A DNA stretch of 64,000 bases from Fimbriimonadaceae bacterium (lineage in GTDB: Bacteria > Armatimonadota > UBA10988), in NCBI GenBank assembly GCA_020850355.1, contig JADZEX010000033.1:49764-113763 (forward strand). The letters are read 5' to 3'. The stretch's first letter is position 1. Each line of letters starts with the position of its first letter. The position numbers and the translations under genes were made by a program. Under the pieces are notes generated by a model. It had not been told where the DNA came from. It saw only the letters and a list, made by a program, of their open reading frames with translations, and searched no databases. Of this stretch, positions 21,364-57,957 are shown in pieces.

Positions 21364-21448
21364 TCTCACGCAGAGACGCTGAGCCGCAGAGAGGCCGAGT
21401 CCGAATGCCGAGATTCCCATAGTCGTTCTCTGCGCCTCCCCGTGAACA
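21364..21448. repeat. Palindromic CTCACGCAGAG-type element, copy 1
   Basis: tctcacgcagagacgctgagccgcagag ... gttctctgcgcctccccgtgaaca, inverted arms; lies in the Res/Mod intergenic gap. Confidence 0.7.
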
Positions 21449-23407: not shown

Positions 23408-23535
23408 ACTCACGCAGAGACGCGGAGACGCAGAGACTCAAGGTTCGGCCAAGAGCAACCGTCGCGGCAGCCCCACGAGGTGAGACCCGGTGACCCCAAC
23501 CCGGACCGGCCGTTCTTTGCGCCGCCGCGTGAGTC
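23408..23535. repeat. Palindromic CTCACGCAGAG-type element, copy 2
   Basis: actcacgcagagacgcggagacgcagagact ... tctttgcgccgccgcgtgagtc; lies in the Mod/SNF2 intergenic gap. Confidence 0.65.
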
Positions 23536-29542: not shown

Positions 29543-29662
29543 TCTCACGCAGAGGCGCGGAGACGCAGAGTCCATCAAGAAGAAGGTAGCGGAAAGGTCA
29601 AGACGGCCGCTCCGCTAGCCTACTCCTTTCCGACCTCTGCGGCTCTGCGGCTCGGCGTGAGA
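29543..29662. repeat. Palindromic CTCACGCAGAG-type element, copy 3
   Basis: tctcacgcagaggcgcggagacgcagag ... ctctgcggctctgcggctcggcgtgaga; arms are near-perfect inverted repeats about 120 bp end to end. Confidence 0.8.
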
Positions 29663-40200: not shown

Positions 40201-40440
40201 ATGCAAGGCGGTGTCGCGATACGTCCGGGGGGGGGGGGCAAGTGCAAGGTCCTATCAATGGCGGAGACGCGGGCGTTGCAAGCGGTGGCCGACCATGGCT
40301 GCCTGCAGCGCGCGGCCGTGGCGCTTGGCGTCTCCTACAAGACGGTGGAGTCGCAGCTCATGGCATGTCGAAGCAAGCTCGATAGCATCTCGACGACGCA
40401 AGCCGTGGCCACGGGGCTACGCGAGGGCCTGATCACTTAG
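40201..40440 (+). CDS. Small LuxR-type HTH protein, copy 1, with 12-G tract in 5' region
   Basis: ETRALQAVADHGCLQRAAVALGVSYKTVESQLMACRSKLDSISTTQAVATGLREGLIT; paralogous to the 42380-42679 protein. Confidence 0.7.
   Translation: MQGGVAIRPGGGGKCKVLSMAETRALQAVADHGCLQRAAVALGVSYKTVESQLMACRSKLDSISTTQAVATGLREGLIT
40227..40238 (+). repeat. 12-nt homopolymeric G tract
   Basis: cgtcc(G)12caagtgc within the 5' part of the HTH ORF. Confidence 0.9.
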
Positions 40441-42379: not shown

Positions 42380-42679
42380 ATGGTCACCACCGAACCTGAT
42401 CAGACAAAACGGCGACGTCACGGGTGGGTGATCGCAGTGGAAGGCAATGCCGAGGAGGGCGCAGGGATGTTGGCTCAGACATGCGAAGCTCTGTCGGAGG
42501 CTGAGACCAAAGCGCTGCAGGCGCTTGCCGATCATGGCTGCGTGATGCGTGCGGCGAAGGCGCTGGGTGTCGCATACAAGACCGTGGAGTTGCAGTTGGC
42601 GGCCTGTCGTAGGAAACTCGACTGCGTCTCGACCGCACAAGCCGTGGCCAAGGGCCTGCGCCAGGGACTGATCAGGTGA
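42380..42679 (+). CDS. Small LuxR-type HTH protein, copy 2
   Basis: LSEAETKALQALADHGCVMRAAKALGVAYKTVELQLAACRRKLDCVSTAQAVAKGLRQGLIR. Confidence 0.75.
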   Translation: MVTTEPDQTKRRRHGWVIAVEGNAEEGAGMLAQTCEALSEAETKALQALADHGCVMRAAKALGVAYKTVELQLAACRRKLDCVSTAQAVAKGLRQGLIR

Positions 42680-46341: not shown

Positions 46342-46484
46342 TGCTCGGCAGCCGCCGTGGCGCCGGCGCCGGCGCTGGCCGCGACATCACCTGCCATGCC
46401 CAGTCCATTGGCTCTACCTCATAGGGCAGGAAACCCCAGCAGCGGCGCGAAGTTCCCGCCTGCGGTGACCTGCAGGAGTTCTCG

Positions 46485-47981
46485 ATGGACAACCCCGGCG
46501 GCTTCGGCTTCGCCAACTACGCCACCCTGGTGCTCTACTTCGCGGCGATGCTCGGGGTCGGCGTCTGGGCCAGTCGGCGCGTCAAGAGCTCCGAGGGCTA
46601 CTTCATCGCCGAAGGCCGCCTGCCGGCGGTCTTGGTCGGCTTGTCGATGCTGGGCACCTACCTCTCGGCGACCACCATGATGGGCCTGCCGGGGAAGGCC
46701 TATGGGCCTGAGGACCTGACCTGGAGCATCCAACTCCCGTTCCTGCTGGTGACCGCCTTCGTGATCACCCGCTTCGTGCTGCCGGTCTTCCGCGCCGCTG
46801 GCGTGGTCAGCGTCTACCAGTTCCTCGAGCAGCGCATCCACCTGGCCGCCCGGCTGCTCGCCTCGGCCAGCTTCATCGCCCTGTCGGTCGCCCGGATGGG
46901 GCTGGCGGTCTACCTCCCGGCCCTCGCCTTCTCGCAGTGCGCCGGGCTCAGCCTGCACTGGTCGATCCTCGGGATGGGCGTCGTGATGACGGTCTACACC
47001 GTGATCGGTGGGATCGAGGCGGTGATCTGGACCGACGCCATTCAGGTGGTGATCTTCGTGGTCGCCGCGGTCTACAGCATCGCCGCCATCCTGGTGCGTT
47101 GCGCCGGGGGCGACTTCTGGGCGATCGCGGCCGAGCACCACAAGTTCCGGATGATCGAGCCGGGCTTCGACCTCTCCAAGCCGGTGACCCTCTGGCTGAT
47201 CGTCGAGACGATCTTCTCGACCATCCGGATCTACGGTTCGCAGCAGGACATGACCCAGCGCTACCTCACCACGGAGTCGACCAAGGAAGCCAACAAGTCG
47301 GTCTGGGTGGCGATTCTGGGGTACATCCCCCTGGGCTACCTGTTCTACTTCATCGGCGCGGCGCTGTTCGTGTTCTACCAGATCCACCCCGACCCGCGCC
47401 TCGCCGAGATCAAGCCCGACGCCATCTACCCCTACTTCGTCGCTACCCAGTTGCCGCCGGGGCTGGCCGGACTGGTCGTCGCCGGCATCTTCGCCGCCGC
47501 CATGTCGACGGTCAGCTCGCTGATGAACAGCACCTCGACGGTCTGCGTGCTGGACTTCTACAAGCGGCTCAGCAAGCGCGAACGGCCCGATGCCGACTAC
47601 CTCAAGGTGGCGCGCTGGTTGACAGTCCTGTGGGGTGTCTCGACCATTGTCCTGGCCTACGCGATGCAGAACATCAAGTCGGCGCTGGACACCTGGGTCA
47701 AGATCATGGGCTTCACCAGCAACGGCGTCCTGGCGCTGATGGTGCTGGCCTTCCTGCCGCCCAAGATCACCCTCTGGCCGGGTGTGATCGGCTTCGTCGT
47801 CGCCAACTTGACAGCCTGGCTGGTGACCTTGCCCGGCGTCACGCAGCCGCTCTTGGGGGTCGAGAAGGTCGCCCCGCAGATCCTGGTGCTGGTCGGCGCT
47901 CCGCTGGGGGTGATCGTCGGCCTGCTGGCGCAGACGCTGGCGAACGCCACCCGGCGGGCGCCGACCTTGGCCGACCAGTGA
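46485..47981 (+). CDS. Sodium:solute symporter (SSS) family transporter
   Basis: GVWASRRVKSSEGYFIAEGRLPAVLVGLSMLGTYLSATTMMGLPGKAY; GLAGLVVAGIFAAAMSTVSSLMNSTSTVCVLDFY. Confidence 0.95.
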   Translation: MDNPGGFGFANYATLVLYFAAMLGVGVWASRRVKSSEGYFIAEGRLPAVLVGLSMLGTYLSATTMMGLPGKAYGPEDLTWSIQLPFLLVTAFVITRFVLPVFRAAGVVSVYQFLEQRIHLAARLLASASFIALSVARMGLAVYLPALAFSQCAGLSLHWSILGMGVVMTVYTVIGGIEAVIWTDAIQVVIFVVAAVYSIAAILVRCAGGDFWAIAAEHHKFRMIEPGFDLSKPVTLWLIVETIFSTIRIYGSQQDMTQRYLTTESTKEANKSVWVAILGYIPLGYLFYFIGAALFVFYQIHPDPRLAEIKPDAIYPYFVATQLPPGLAGLVVAGIFAAAMSTVSSLMNSTSTVCVLDFYKRLSKRERPDADYLKVARWLTVLWGVSTIVLAYAMQNIKSALDTWVKIMGFTSNGVLALMVLAFLPPKITLWPGVIGFVVANLTAWLVTLPGVTQPLLGVEKVAPQILVLVGAPLGVIVGLLAQTLANATRRAPTLADQ

Positions 47982-51829: not shown

Positions 51830-52258
51830 ATGCTGATGGCCCGCTGGAGCCTGCAACGACTGCTGACTGCTCTCCTGGCCGGCGGCTTCGCGATGCTCTG
51901 CGCAGACACGATCTGGGAGCACCGCGGCGAGCTGGCCGAGCACCCACCCGCCTGGCTGCCGATCGTCTGCAGCGGCCTGCTGACGGTGCTCTTGCTGGCG
52001 ACCGTCCTCGTCTGGCGGCCGGCGCTGCGAACCGCGGCCCGCTGGACCGCTGTCCTGCCGCTGCTGGTCGGCTTGACCGGCTGGGTGCTGCACAACGAGG
52101 ATCGCCTCGAGAGCGGCGACCTGACCGCCCTCCTGCCGCCGCTGCTGGCGCCGTTGGCGTTCTGCGGCCTGGCGGCGCTGACGTTCCTGGTCTCGTCCAC
52201 CCGCTGGCCGGAGAGTTGGCCCAGCGTGACCGCTCGAGCGGAGGAGCACGATGCCTAG
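51830..52258 (+). CDS. Small multi-pass membrane protein
   Basis: MLMARWSLQRLLTALLAGGFAMLC...; about four hydrophobic segments; overlaps the next gene. Confidence 0.6.
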   Translation: MLMARWSLQRLLTALLAGGFAMLCADTIWEHRGELAEHPPAWLPIVCSGLLTVLLLATVLVWRPALRTAARWTAVLPLLVGLTGWVLHNEDRLESGDLTALLPPLLAPLAFCGLAALTFLVSSTRWPESWPSVTARAEEHDA

Positions 52259-53954
52259 AATCTGGTGGCTGCCGCTGCTCGCCGCCGCGGCCGGCGGTGC
52301 TGCCGAACTGCCGAACGCCGGCTTCGAAGCCGCCGGCGCGGGCGGTTTCGACGCGTACGTCAGGAACGGCTGGCAGCCGGAAACGGGCGACAGCTTGCTG
52401 GGCTTGCCGAACCAGTGGAGTGCCTACCAGTGGGGCGACGTCGGGGCCGGCTGGAGCGTCACCGTCGAGCAGGGCGCCGGCCGCCAGGGCAGCGCTGCGC
52501 TACGTGCCTTGAACCGCGGCAGTGCCGCCCGTGCCGGAGCCTACTCGCGCGCCGCGCTGACCCCCGGCACCTGGCGCCTGGCGGTCTGGGCGCGCACCGC
52601 GCCGGGCCAGACCGGCAGTGCCGCCATCTACCTCGCCAACACCTACTCGCGGCCGACCAGGCTCAGCGAGCAGTGGCGGCAGATCACGGTCCAGGCGACC
52701 GTCGCCGAGGCCTCGGCGGCCGCCGAGGTCAACCTGCAGAGCCGCTCCAGCGGCGGCGTCACCGTGTGGTTCGACGACGTCACCCTGGAACTGGTCGCAG
52801 CGGGCACCTACCACTTGCAGGCCGACGACCGCGCCGACCGACCGCGGACGCTGCTGTTCTCGCCGATCAACGTCAACTACCTGCGCGACCACGCTCGCGA
52901 GGCGGCTGGCTGGGGCTTCCGCGGCTTCCTCTTCGACGACCTCTTCTGGAGCTGGGGCTCGGACGTCTGGGCGGTCGACAAGGACCCGGCCAGTCGCGGC
53001 GAGGACGACCGGCTGCTGGCCGAAGTGCGCGCCTGCAACGAGGCCTGCCGCGCCGTCGGGATTGACAGCAACTTCGTCAAGGTGGCCTTCTACCAGGAGC
53101 TGCCCGACTGGTTCGACGACGCCGCCTGGGCCGCCATCGGGCGCAACTTCCGGGAGGGTGCCCGCTTCGCCAAACTGGCCGGCTGCCTGGGCGTGGCGAT
53201 CGACACCGAGTACATCGCGCAGCAGTACAGCCCCGATTGGCCGGGCTACCAGGCCGCGCAGCGCCCGCTGGCCGACCTCAAGGCGAAGGTCCGGCAGCGC
53301 TGGCAGACCGTGATCGCGGGGATGTACGCCGAGTGGCCCGAGCTGGTGCTGCTGACGCTGCCGGAGGGGATGCTCTACTACGGCGAGCTGTACGGCGACC
53401 TGTTCCAGGGCTTCCTGGCGGCCGCCGCCGCGGCCGACGCGCCAGGCGGGCTGCACATCATGACCGAGGGCACCTACCATACCACCGACCCGGGTGGCCT
53501 GGCGGGGTATCCCGGCCGAATCGACGAGTGGATCGCCGACGAGTGCCCGGAGCCGTTGGTGACCTGGTGGCGCCGCCGCGGGAGCGTCGTGCTGGGGGCC
53601 TGGCCAATGGGCTACTACCGCGAAGTCCACGACGCCGCCGGCAAGATGCTCGGCTACAGCGGCCGGCAGGAGCAGTTTGGCGACCAGATCGTCGGGTCGT
53701 ACGCCGACAAGAGCGCCTGGTACTCGCCGGAGGTCTTCGCGAAGCAGATGGCCGGCCTCAACAGCTATTCGCCGCGCTTCAACTGGATCTACGGCCACGG
53801 CTGCGTCTGGTGGCAGTACAGCGAGGCGGACAAGGCCAAGTACACCGCCGGCGTCCACCAGGCCCTCTCGAACGCCCTGCTCCCGACCGCGCCGAACCTC
53901 GCCGCCTACGCCGCGGTGATCCGGGCCCCGCAGCGCCTCGTGCGGCAGCCGTAG
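52251..53954 (+). CDS. Secreted carbohydrate-binding/glycoside-hydrolase-like protein
   Basis: MPRIWWLPLLAAAAGGAAELPNAGFEAAG; CBM-like LTPGTWRLAVWARTAPGQTGSA...VWFDDVTLEL; TIM-barrel-like GWGFRGFLFDDLFWSWGSD. Confidence 0.6.
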   Translation: MPRIWWLPLLAAAAGGAAELPNAGFEAAGAGGFDAYVRNGWQPETGDSLLGLPNQWSAYQWGDVGAGWSVTVEQGAGRQGSAALRALNRGSAARAGAYSRAALTPGTWRLAVWARTAPGQTGSAAIYLANTYSRPTRLSEQWRQITVQATVAEASAAAEVNLQSRSSGGVTVWFDDVTLELVAAGTYHLQADDRADRPRTLLFSPINVNYLRDHAREAAGWGFRGFLFDDLFWSWGSDVWAVDKDPASRGEDDRLLAEVRACNEACRAVGIDSNFVKVAFYQELPDWFDDAAWAAIGRNFREGARFAKLAGCLGVAIDTEYIAQQYSPDWPGYQAAQRPLADLKAKVRQRWQTVIAGMYAEWPELVLLTLPEGMLYYGELYGDLFQGFLAAAAAADAPGGLHIMTEGTYHTTDPGGLAGYPGRIDEWIADECPEPLVTWWRRRGSVVLGAWPMGYYREVHDAAGKMLGYSGRQEQFGDQIVGSYADKSAWYSPEVFAKQMAGLNSYSPRFNWIYGHGCVWWQYSEADKAKYTAGVHQALSNALLPTAPNLAAYAAVIRAPQRLVRQP

Positions 53955-53978
53955 CTTCCGGCGGCAGGCCCGGCCGGC
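53916..53978 (+). repeat. Left copy of 63-bp direct repeat
   Basis: gtgatccgggccccgcagcgcctcgtgcggcagccgtagcttccggcggcaggcccggccggc; 60/63 identical to 56646-56708. Confidence 0.92.
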
Positions 53979-54290
53979 AGGCCTCCAGCTCGCTGTGTCA
54001 CAGCGTCCCCGGCTCGGTCGTGCCTGGACCAACCGCCCAGGTTACGACAAGAGTCGCGGCCCCACGTTAGGAGGTTGGCCAGCCGGTGCGAGGGCTTGCC
54101 GCGCAAGTCATTGACATGCCTCTCGCCAGCGTTGTACGCTCACCAAGCCACGGCGGCCATCGCGGCCACGATGCCTGGCAACGGGGAAGGGTCGGACGTG
54201 TGGCGGCGGTCCGCAACCACGTGCCGACCCGGTGCAGTGGGACCGCCGCAGCCAGCGAACGCTGGAGTCACGCCGGAAGGGGTTCGGACC

Positions 54291-55676
54291 ATGGCACTGA
54301 AGCTGCCGGACGAGGTCTTGCGTGATGCGACGATCTGGGGGTTCCGAGCTGGCTTCGACGACCAGGACTTCCTGAAGAGCCTCCACAGCCCGCGCTGGGG
54401 CGAGCGCTTTGGGGACGCCGCTCAGCCGCTGCCCACGGGTCGGCCCTTGCACGAACTGATCCGGGCGATCTGCCAGGAGCACGACATCGCGCAGCCCTTC
54501 GTCTGGGCCAAACTGGTTGGCGAGACGAGCTTCCTGACCGCGCCGGAGCCGCCGGGCAAGGGTTACAAGGCGCCGCTGGGGTTTGACTGCCCCGATGACG
54601 GGCGAGATCCGCGGCCGCAGTACTACGGCGTGCTCCGCAACCTCCAGGGCGGCATCGCGTGGTGGCGCCGGTTCCTGGACAAGTGGGACTGGCAACGGCG
54701 GCTGCGGTGCGGGCTGGCGGACATCAATGTCAGCGCTGAGGGCCAGCGGGTGCGCCGCCAGACTGTCAGCCCCCGGACCGCGGCCGAGGTCGCCTACCTG
54801 ATCTACACGCCGCATCTATACAGCCTGCACGACTTCCACACGATCTGGCGCCAGCGCTTCGCGGGGCAGCTTGAGCCGCCCGTGCAGGTTGTCCTGCCTG
54901 GGCTGCCGGCCAGTCGTTTCACCTGGCCGGTGGCCCAGATGCTCTCGCGCCGGGTCAATGTCACGCTTCACGGCCGGAGCGTGCATCGCCCTGGCGACGT
55001 CCGCCACCATAACGTCTTCAAGGGCTACACCGAGTGGGGCACCAACGGTCACCGCGGGGTCGGCGACGCCGTGGACCTGTTCTGCCCTGCCAACACGGAG
55101 GTCTTCGCGATTGGGGACGGTTTCCAGACCAGGTGGCGCAATGACCTGACCCGGCAAGAGGTGATCTACCTCGAAGGCGACGGTTGGCTGGCGGTCTACG
55201 CGCACATCGATGCCGTCCATGAGGGTCAGCAAGTGGCCGTCCAGCGCGGCGAGGTCGTGGGCCGCGTGCGACCCGACCTCGCCGACCCCCACCTGCACTT
55301 CGAGTTGTGGCTCGACGGCCAGGCGGTCGCAGCCCAGGATCCCGCCAGCCTCCGCGACCTGATGGCGCACCGCCTGGGGTTGGCTGAAGTGGCGCCGGTG
55401 CGGCAGGAGCCGCGAGTGATCGTCGCCAAGCCCGCCGGGAGCGAGCCGAGTGCTGACGGGCTGCTCTACTGCCCGCTGCCATCCCGTTGGGACAGCCAGG
55501 CCAACCAGGCCGAGGTCGACTCCGCGGCGTTGGCCGAGTGGCTGGGCACCTCCATCGGCGGTCTGCCGAAGTATGCGCCGCTCCGCGAGGCCCTGACAGC
55601 GATGGGCGTGACAGCGAGGTTCGACCTGACGCACCTGCACGCCGCCAACCCGCGGATCTACGTCTTCACGGGGTGA
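54291..55676 (+). CDS. Cell-wall-hydrolase-like protein with C-terminal M23 peptidase domain
   Basis: GTNGHRGVGDAVDLFCPANTEVFAIGDGFQTRW...IYLEGDGWLAVYAHIDAVHEGQQVAVQRGEVVGRV...DPHLHFELW; N-terminal globular helical domain. Confidence 0.75.
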   Translation: MALKLPDEVLRDATIWGFRAGFDDQDFLKSLHSPRWGERFGDAAQPLPTGRPLHELIRAICQEHDIAQPFVWAKLVGETSFLTAPEPPGKGYKAPLGFDCPDDGRDPRPQYYGVLRNLQGGIAWWRRFLDKWDWQRRLRCGLADINVSAEGQRVRRQTVSPRTAAEVAYLIYTPHLYSLHDFHTIWRQRFAGQLEPPVQVVLPGLPASRFTWPVAQMLSRRVNVTLHGRSVHRPGDVRHHNVFKGYTEWGTNGHRGVGDAVDLFCPANTEVFAIGDGFQTRWRNDLTRQEVIYLEGDGWLAVYAHIDAVHEGQQVAVQRGEVVGRVRPDLADPHLHFELWLDGQAVAAQDPASLRDLMAHRLGLAEVAPVRQEPRVIVAKPAGSEPSADGLLYCPLPSRWDSQANQAEVDSAALAEWLGTSIGGLPKYAPLREALTAMGVTARFDLTHLHAANPRIYVFTG

Positions 55677-55746
55677 GACGACCTGAGCAGCGCCGCAGGC
55701 GCCAGCCGCGCTCGGCCCACCGGACCGTGACAAAGGGGATCACACG

Positions 55747-56649
55747 ATGTCAGCGACCGTCGGTCAAGGGGATCTGCAAGTTACCACTCTGAACGGCCTG
55801 GGTCCGCCGCCCGGCTCGGCGGCGGACCTTGACCGGATCTACCAGTACGTCGTCCGAATCGGGGCGGAGGCGCAGGCCTGGTACCTGCAGAAGAAGTCCC
55901 GCCCGGCCACGTTCGCCTGTAGCTTTCGCTTGTGGGCGTCGTTGATGGCTGCCCTCGGGGCGCTGCTGCCGCTGATCGACGGGCTGGTGCAGAGCTACTC
56001 CAGCCACCGCATTCCCCCGATGTGGGCTTCGGTGGCGATCCTCCTGGCGGGGGCGTTGTTGGGCATGGACAAAGCCTTCGGCACCACCAGCCGCTGGATG
56101 CGGATGGTGACCACCGCGATGAAGCTGCGCAGCATCGGGGTCGCGTTCGAGCTGGATTGGGCGGCGGCGCGGGCGGCGCTGGGGGAGCGCGAGCCCACCG
56201 CTGCGGAGGCGGTCCAGTTGATCCACCTGGCGCGGCAGGCCGCGAGCCGGATCTGTGGGGCGATCGAAAGCGAGACGGCCTCCTGGGCGCAGGACCTGGT
56301 GGCGAGCCTCAAGGAGCTGGACAAGCCCCCAGGTGGGCGAGGCTGGACCGACCCGCCGCGGCCGGAGCCACCGACTGCGACCGTGGGACCAACCGGCGCG
56401 GTGCGAGTCGAGATCACCAACCACACCGCAGAGGATGACGGTTGGTCGCTGACCATCGGCGAGATCAAGGTGCAGTCGGTTGCGGGCGATCTGGTGGTGC
56501 TGGCCAACGTCCCGGAGGGCCAACTCGCGCTGCAGGCGTGCCCGGCACGCGATGGGGCCAGGCGAGCCGTCGAGCAGCAGGTGACCATCGTCGGCGGCGA
56601 GACCACCGTCGTCAAGCTGGAGTGGCCAGCCCTCCCGGCCGCGCCGTGA
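55747..56649 (+). CDS. SLATT-like two-TM membrane protein with C-terminal beta-rich domain
   Basis: DRIYQYVVRIGAEAQAWYLQKKSRPATFACSFRLWASLMAALGALLPLIDG...MWASVAILLAGALLGMDKAFGTTSRWMRMVTTAMKLRSIGVAFELDWAAARAAL; C-term VRVEITNHTAEDDGWSLTIGEIKVQSVAGDLVVLANVPEGQLALQA. Confidence 0.6.
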   Translation: MSATVGQGDLQVTTLNGLGPPPGSAADLDRIYQYVVRIGAEAQAWYLQKKSRPATFACSFRLWASLMAALGALLPLIDGLVQSYSSHRIPPMWASVAILLAGALLGMDKAFGTTSRWMRMVTTAMKLRSIGVAFELDWAAARAALGEREPTAAEAVQLIHLARQAASRICGAIESETASWAQDLVASLKELDKPPGGRGWTDPPRPEPPTATVGPTGAVRVEITNHTAEDDGWSLTIGEIKVQSVAGDLVVLANVPEGQLALQACPARDGARRAVEQQVTIVGGETTVVKLEWPALPAAP

Positions 56650-56708
56650 TCCGCTCCCCGCAGCGCCTCGTGCGGCAGCCGTAGCTTACGGCGGCAGGCC
56701 CGGCCGGC
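56646..56708 (+). repeat. Right copy of 63-bp direct repeat
   Basis: gtgatccgctccccgcagcgcctcgtgcggcagccgtagcttacggcggcaggcccggccggc. Confidence 0.92.
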
Positions 56709-57957
56709 GGATCGGCGGCACTGGCTGCAGGACCGCTGCCAGGTCGGGATCGAGGCGCTGCTGGTGGACCCGGTCGGCGAGCTCGGCGACCGCGGCGCAA
56801 GCCAGTTGGGTGGCGTCGCAGGCCGTCGTCGGGGGCAGGCTGCGGGGCAGGTCCCAGCGCTCGATGCCTGTGCCGGCGGGCAGTTCTGGCCAGGTCGCGG
56901 CGTGCTCGCCGGCCACTGCGGCCAGGTAGGCCCGGTCGGGATTCAGGCGCACCCAACGCGCCGCCGCGGCGCGCCAGCCGGACCAGGCGGCCCAGAGGTG
57001 CGGATGGTCGGGCGCCGCCTGCTGGTGATCCGGCTCCTGGCCCAGGACCATCGCCAGCAACTCCGGACGGTTGACCACCGCCCGCGCGAAGTTGCCCGCG
57101 GCGTTGCGGCGAGCCCAGAACTCAGCGGCTTCGGCCGCGCGCAGCAGGTGCGCCGGCCAGTCGGGCAGCAGTTGGCGCTGGGCGGCCGCCTGCAACAGGC
57201 CGGTCGGGTAGACGTAGCGCGGCAGCGCGCCGCCGCCCGGTGCCGGCAGCGCCGCCGGCACGAGGTCGGTCGGGCTGGCTTGCCCGTCGCGGTTGGTGTC
57301 GAGGTAGAAGGCCCCGTAGACCAGCCCCCCGCTGCCCGGCAGGGCCAGCCCCGGGGCGAAGCGCAGGACGGCCCAGTCGACCTCGCCGGTGAGCGGGTCG
57401 TAGGCACTCAGCGCGCCGTCGCCCAGGCCACCGCAGAGCACCGTCGGGGCGCCGTCGCCGACTGGCGTCTCCCAGGTGGCGACCCAGGCCACGCCCTGCA
57501 CAGCGCGGTCCTGCTCGGCCAGCACCAGCACGGCGCTGTTGCCGCCGTTGTCCCAGCCCAGCAGCCCGACGGCGCGGACCGCCGGCTGCAGCGGCGCGGC
57601 GATCTGCGGCAACCGCCGGCCGTCGCTGGCGGCCAGGTCGCCCTGGGCGAAGCGGATCACCTGCGCCAGCACGGCGGTGGCGCGCGGCCCGCGGAGGTCG
57701 GACAGCGTGCCGGCGGGGAACTCGAAGCGCAGGTCGACGCAGCCCAGGGCGGCCAGCGGGGCCGCCAGCCGGCGGCGGTCACCGGGCCCCCAGCCGCCCG
57801 GAACCTGCACCGCCACCGGCGCCACCGCGCCGTACCGGCCCGCGGCCGGCAGCGCCAGGCGGACGGCGATGCTGAGGTCGCCCGCGGGCAACGTCAGGTC
57901 GACCTCACGCACCGCGGGGGCCAGGCCGCAGAGCAACGCCAACAGGAGGCCGGTCAC
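56686..57957 (-). CDS. Secreted alpha/beta-hydrolase-like protein
   Basis: GTG start overlapping the preceding stop; LLALLCGLAPAVREVDLTLPAGDLSIAVRLALPAAGRYGAVAPVAVQVPGGWG; VGLLGWDNGGNSAVLVL nucleophile-elbow-like (atypical). Confidence 0.5.
   Translation of the reverse strand: MTGLLLALLCGLAPAVREVDLTLPAGDLSIAVRLALPAAGRYGAVAPVAVQVPGGWGPGDRRRLAAPLAALGCVDLRFEFPAGTLSDLRGPRATAVLAQVIRFAQGDLAASDGRRLPQIAAPLQPAVRAVGLLGWDNGGNSAVLVLAEQDRAVQGVAWVATWETPVGDGAPTVLCGGLGDGALSAYDPLTGEVDWAVLRFAPGLALPGSGGLVYGAFYLDTNRDGQASPTDLVPAALPAPGGGALPRYVYPTGLLQAAAQRQLLPDWPAHLLRAAEAAEFWARRNAAGNFARAVVNRPELLAMVLGQEPDHQQAAPDHPHLWAAWSGWRAAAARWVRLNPDRAYLAAVAGEHAATWPELPAGTGIERWDLPRSLPPTTACDATQLACAAVAELADRVHQQRLDPDLAAVLQPVPPIRRPGLPP

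Follow-up and report, generated by a model that had tools for sequence, protein, structure and literature searches.

A predicted wall hydrolase and a SLATT_2 protein between direct repeats of a host gene end in an Armatimonadota genome

The locus and its direct repeats

The window analysed here, a stretch of 64,000 nucleotides (C34:49764-113763), belongs to a 95%-complete draft Armatimonadota MAG of 6,671,784 bases in 117 contigs. In this window, two convergent genes, here termed A and B, enclose a 2.7-kb block with two further genes, and the block is bracketed by two copies of the gene A 3' end. The features are as follows, in window coordinates:

52251..53954, plus strand: gene A, a secreted-type protein of 567 aa, which shares its last 13 codons with the left repeat
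53912..53978, plus strand: left direct repeat, the live gene A 3' end and the next 24 bp
53979..54290, no strand assigned: stretch of 312 bp upstream of the cassette genes, in which no Rfam family, consensus promoter or terminator was found
54291..55676, plus strand: predicted wall hydrolase of 461 aa (PF01551, E 1.2e-12), with the M23 domain at aa 260-346
55747..56649, plus strand: SLATT_2 two-TM protein of 300 aa (PF18183, E 1.8e-22; NF033633, E 2.9e-32)
56642..56708, plus strand: right direct repeat, an orphan copy of the gene A 3' end that overlaps the end of gene B
56686..57957, minus strand: gene B, 423 aa, convergent, whose stop and last 6 codons lie in the right repeat

These four gene positions are those of a sequence-only reading of the window, which had also claimed a match of 60 of 63 positions between 53916-53978 and 56646-56708; the match is borne out, and the full ungapped block (53912-53978 and 56642-56708) extends it to 63 of 67, with an exact core of 32 bp. 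Likewise, the left copy is the true 3' end of gene A and the right copy re-encodes the tail of gene A with no gene attached, as had been proposed. The calls of a wall hydrolase and of a SLATT-like 2TM protein both find their domains, an M23 peptidase (PF01551) and a true SLATT_2 (PF18183 and NF033633), and the interval between the repeats, claimed to be free of integrase and transposase, indeed contains neither in recognisable form. The SLATT gene ends in a stop codon (TGA, 56647-56649) that comes from the first bases of the right repeat.

The repeat pair scores 104 bits, against a best of 37.4 in a first-order Markov shuffle of 1.95 Mb from the same genome, in which no direct pair within 12 kb was found at 52 bits; the pair is real and far exceeds chance. 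A 96-base query against the whole genome recovers the two copies and one 22-base partial match elsewhere, which excludes the dispersed repeat that the earlier reading had weighed, and the two cassette genes likewise each occur once in the genome. A role of the repeat as a terminator hairpin is ruled out, the folding being ordinary and no consensus terminator being found. In the region as a whole, promoter consensus, terminator and Rfam family were searched and not found.

Neither gene A nor gene B has a match in Pfam or NCBIfam. Orthologues of gene A occur in two relative genomes (G003, 43%; G012, 35%) and those of gene B in two others (G001 and G002, about 50%). The gene A orthologues stop at about 'AVMRQR', and homology anchors just the first 3-4 repeat codons of gene A, while the gene B orthologues end a few residues short of the repeat. 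In none of the regions read in family-level relatives are A and B orthologues neighbours; they lie in unrelated places, and no empty site was seen. Both the short anchoring in gene A and the missing linkage would suit a local duplication or gene conversion that placed the gene A 3' end beside gene B, unconnected to the acquisition of the two genes; however, this genome shows the pattern again with unrelated cargo, the repeats being direct rather than inverted and lying away from contig ends, and such an origin is very improbable. A chimeric join at shared sequence in a strain-mixed metagenome is the least credible explanation of all: the assembly is a draft of 117 contigs and the copies differ in the manner of strain variants, but they are non-identical, with no exact match longer than 32 bp, the genes between them are intact and their sequence is unique, and repeats of other lengths show the same pattern elsewhere in the genome.

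Other repeats are also present in the window. A 26-bp dispersed repeat, TCACGCAGAGACGCGGAGACGCAGAG, lies in the same orientation between long genes at 21366-21391, 23410-23435 and 29545-29570. In addition, a direct repeat of 193 bp and 74% identity (40243-40435 and 42482-42674) occurs near neighbouring pentapeptide-repeat-type genes and is probably a tandem gene duplication.

Cassette genes and their relatives

The hydrolase consists of an uncharacterised N-terminal part, the M23 peptidase domain and a short C-terminal part. Its structure model has a mean pLDDT of 44; the M23 domain alone is moderately modelled, and the rest is of low confidence. M23 homologues occur on three IMG/VR contigs, and the closest relative (53%), located just downstream of tail-type genes on a viral contig (L063), shares a short insertion in the M23 domain with the cassette protein. 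Furthermore, the cassette gene shares 38-44% identity with M23 genes adjoining phage head genes in the phylum. In G019, where terminase, T4-type portal and Gp23-type capsid genes are all confirmed, the homologue stands between the first two and the capsid gene is close by, and the same gene order surrounds the homologue in G032; in G233 and G234, where the ORFs were read by eye, it lies near phage-head-type genes. Judged by these sequence relationships, the M23 domain of the cassette is of a phage family; with this hydrolase and a true SLATT_2 partner, the cassette looks foreign. The neighbours of the cassette hydrolase are host-type genes, whereas its relatives sit in a phage gene cluster. 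The GC3 of both cassette genes is 0.87, against 0.94 in gene A and 0.93 in gene B, and the overall GC of the insert is not significantly low.

In an alignment inspected by eye (window 54975-55080), the first-motif His (HxxxD) of this phage M23 family seems to be replaced, the motif reading G-D-A-x-D. An upstream invariant His (GHNV/HHNV) may substitute for the missing HxxxD His.

In the case of the second gene, the SLATT_2 domain scores 80.6 bits (PF18183) and 111.8 bits (NF033633), well over cut-off, and is accompanied by an extra C-terminal region without a known family. Among 60 related genomes, one other SLATT_2 is found, in the relative G001, beside a SIR2-like protein. That locus (G001:C177; L041 6699-9519) consists of a SIR2-like TPR protein directly followed by SLATT_2, a candidate defence pair in its own right. 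The SLATT gene has no match in phage records, and searches of the SLATT protein against genome contigs, and of the single cassette proteins against viral, phage and plasmid sequences, returned nothing close. According to published predictions, SLATT proteins are nucleotide-responsive pore-forming effectors (PMC7159879), and in antiviral systems they would govern how permeable the membrane is (PMC9503650). A nucleotide-signal sensor or synthase was found neither in the cassette, by Pfam and PADLOC, nor in the flanking genes, by Pfam.

The two cassette genes probably form an operon. An export signal is not recognised in the hydrolase when read by eye, and a wall hydrolase of this kind beside a membrane permeabiliser resembles the logic of endolysin and holin; for this reason, a captured lysis or abortive-infection module is tentatively proposed, as a possibility that we hold somewhat below even chances. 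In such a module, the SLATT protein would permeabilise the membrane and the M23 hydrolase would open the wall, together forming an attack on the envelope during phage conflict.

Similar inserts and the route of entry

Direct repeats spaced 0.4-12 kb apart were surveyed in 1.95 Mb (29%) of this one draft genome, and further inserts between such repeats were found. These parallel cases, picked after the data had been seen and including one near a contig end, have isolated direct repeats of 41-526 bp and 90-96% identity, several of which copy the end of a neighbouring gene:

G000:C34:39479-39611 and 46482-46614 (L047, L048; outside the window): 133-bp repeats, 95.5% identical, copying the 3' end of the neighbour gene, around a Hhe/PDC-S37 defence helicase of 2262 aa
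G000:C38:201013-203635 (L164 1013-1538 and 3110-3635): 526-bp repeats, 95.8% identical, of a gene 3' end, around a PIN toxin (PF01850) with an 80-aa upstream ORF
G000:C76, L139 4298-5511: 41-bp direct repeats around an AbiJ_NTD4/PDC-S32-like gene of 280 aa (weak matches)
G000:C81, L146 16997-18047: 142-bp copies of an amidohydrolase gene 5' end around a 183-aa gene without a known family
Near a contig end: 60-bp repeats around an AAA ATPase

The 2262-aa protein has a DUF4011/helicase/REase composition and matches PDC-S37 in PADLOC with 1362 bits over its 2155-aa C-terminal part and Hhe with an E-value of 1.5e-179. At the PIN locus, the left 526-bp copy is abutted by a 299-aa gene without a family match. 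The AbiJ-like insert and the insert with the 183-aa gene have a GC of 0.58 and 0.60, respectively, against 0.71, and are clearly foreign by composition. In the same 1.95 Mb, no equally strong inverted pair was found away from contig ends and outside single ORFs; such pairs lie at contig ends, save one within a single ORF. Two further candidates were set aside as not firm parallels: a 74-bp sulfatase case on the same contig, in which the middle of a response-regulator gene is copied with neutral differences, and a 540-bp case on C33, in which both copies lie inside an RHS-like coding sequence. Arrays of short tandem or inverted repeats are found at the ends of many contigs of this genome (including L055, L057, L082, L102, L128 and L138), and a likely CRISPR array occupies L138 1-900, with the translated repeat FQPRKAVIGSAD.

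We slightly favour horizontal acquisition of the 2.7-kb block, as an accessory cassette that is among several in this genome inserted together with a long duplication of host sequence, usually a gene end. In the sequence-only reading, a two-gene module entered and a gene 3' end was duplicated in the process; this part is supported by the phage-type cargo, the lower GC3, the uniqueness of the repeat and genes, and about five analogous inserts in the same genome. Its suggestion of an att-type footprint made by an integrase is not supported: a shared integrase would be expected to leave a shared core site, and the repeats have no common sequence, att core or length, the inserts themselves being mutually unrelated; a transposon or integrase reading is disfavoured by repeats without shared sequence. 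Replication slippage, which had also been raised, leaves the unrelated cargo between the copies unexplained.

A related possibility is that this particular block is what is left of a prophage or integrative element whose attachment site was the gene A 3' end and which has lost all but two of its cargo genes. The phage-type M23 gene would fit such a remnant, as would a repeat located at a gene 3' end with the gene left whole. However, the cassette has no integrase and the three tyrosine recombinases of the MAG are all off this contig, the parallel inserts lack a common core sequence or length, and the SLATT gene has no counterpart in phage records; moreover, the repeat core is absent from IMG/VR in an exact 23-mer scan, which a diverged attP would escape. 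On this evidence, a remnant is improbable.

The differences between live and orphan copies bear on how the inserts arrived. In four cases pooled, 28 of the 40 coding differences are synonymous and 12 are non-synonymous. Drift of the orphan copy only is rejected (p 2e-5 to 3e-8, by mutation model), and a model in which the orphan drifts while the live copy changes under selection is disfavoured (p 1e-2 to 6e-5, depending on mutation model and selection strength). The cassette locus alone has three coding differences, two synonymous and one non-synonymous, and is powerless for this comparison; the recombination route described below rests on the other cases. The opposite pattern, 2:5 synonymous to non-synonymous, is observed at the 74-bp sulfatase locus. 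Since the differences are mostly synonymous, the copies look like alleles whose divergence probably took place in different strains, where each was still a functional gene.

If a staggered cut had duplicated the target and the orphan had then decayed, changes at all codon positions would be expected, whereas a synonymous bias is seen; homologous-recombination entry of DNA carrying one copy is therefore favoured over staggered-cut duplication. A true target-site duplication, in which transposition or break capture with a 63-67 bp stagger at the A/B junction is followed by filling of the ends and drift of the orphan, is nevertheless consistent with the architecture and the variable repeat length (41-526 bp), which match 'insertion with long target duplication' as originally described (cited in PMC1643837 and PMC3031569). 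Apart from the synonymous bias of the orphan copies, a 526-bp stagger is hardly explained by cleavage, no transposase is recognised in the cassette, and Ku is not found in the 95%-complete MAG, which speaks against Ku-based break capture. Replacement of the live allele after a true target duplication would equally yield synonymous-biased differences. Taken together, a true target-site duplication is unlikely, though less so than a prophage remnant.

Along the favoured recombination route, whose steps and order we infer, the incoming DNA would hold the cassette together with a single allele of the host gene end, for example as a circle that had been excised by inter-repeat recombination in another strain and taken up free. 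A single homologous exchange, in the case of a circle, or a homology-anchored exchange with the lone chromosomal copy could then be carried out by host recombination, leaving gene A intact on the left, followed by the cassette and the orphan copy on the right. The MAG encodes both ComEC and DprA; together with the missing Ku, this fits recombination entry and is no proof of it. ComEC and DprA are common also in bacteria not known as transformable.

Comparison with known systems

Insertions of this architecture were reportedly first described by Nobusato et al. in 2000, for restriction-modification genes of Helicobacter pylori, and named 'insertion with long target duplication'. The cassette described here shares their traits: an unrelated insert, direct repeats that vary in length and sequence, and no integrase or transposase. 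The 2000 study is cited for this in PMC1643837 and PMC3031569. Six type II systems of H. pylori are flanked by repeats of 65-395 bp with an intra-strain identity of 86-98%, and strains without the restriction-modification system carry a single repeat copy (PMC10423294). Similarly, a small gene unit lies between direct repeats of variable length in the present genome (41-526 bp, 90-96%). There are significant differences as well. The cargo here comprises a phage wall hydrolase with SLATT, a helicase defence gene, a PIN toxin and others; single-copy empty alleles are known in H. pylori, whereas the present pattern is read from one genome, in the phylum Armatimonadota; and a synonymous-biased divergence of the copies and several cases in a single genome are noted here. 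In the literature that we found, repeat-bracketed insertions mainly concern the H. pylori restriction-modification genes, and the inserts of this genome add several other conflict-type genes.

A comparable arrangement is found among transposed genes of Arabidopsis with flanking direct repeats, for which excision of a circle and homology-driven reinsertion have been proposed (PMC2869330). In both cases the repeats correspond to the target site, which is mostly genic, and the proposed route is the one favoured here; the plant genes, however, are nuclear genes that move within one genome, whereas the present inserts are bacterial accessory genes that probably move between strains.

With regard to the cassette proteins, the hydrolase has the M23 domain in common with phage M23 endolysins (PHROG 6700 and 3084), and the signature TLHGRS...DVPGHNV...GDAxDxF is common to the cassette, prophage and viral M23 genes. 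In contrast to these endolysins, the cassette hydrolase has a long N-terminal extension without known relatives, and its gene is chromosomal, between repeats and outside a phage gene cluster. Compared with the SLATT_2 proteins of conflict systems (PF18183), whose domain it shares over cut-off, the cassette protein possesses its extra C-terminal region, has a wall hydrolase as partner and lacks a recognised nucleotide-signal gene.

The way in which solitary defence and toxin-antitoxin genes travel from strain to strain, with no mobile element to be recognised, is still a puzzle. The present inserts suggest that small defence-type genes need no integrase of their own for such transfer and rely on ordinary recombination instead, and the way in which orphan copies differ from live ones offers a simple, testable sign that cassettes arrive with another strain's allelic copy of the target gene. 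It is conceivable, although we consider it rather doubtful, that the small defence, toxin-antitoxin and phage-lysis genes of this lineage constitute a class of integrase-free mobile cassettes, with the repeats and not an enzyme as the mobility device; each such cassette would carry a copy of a host gene end, circularise via its repeats and re-enter naive strains at that gene end. The architecture itself is already known and not categorically new, and it is the cargo and the phylum that are new.
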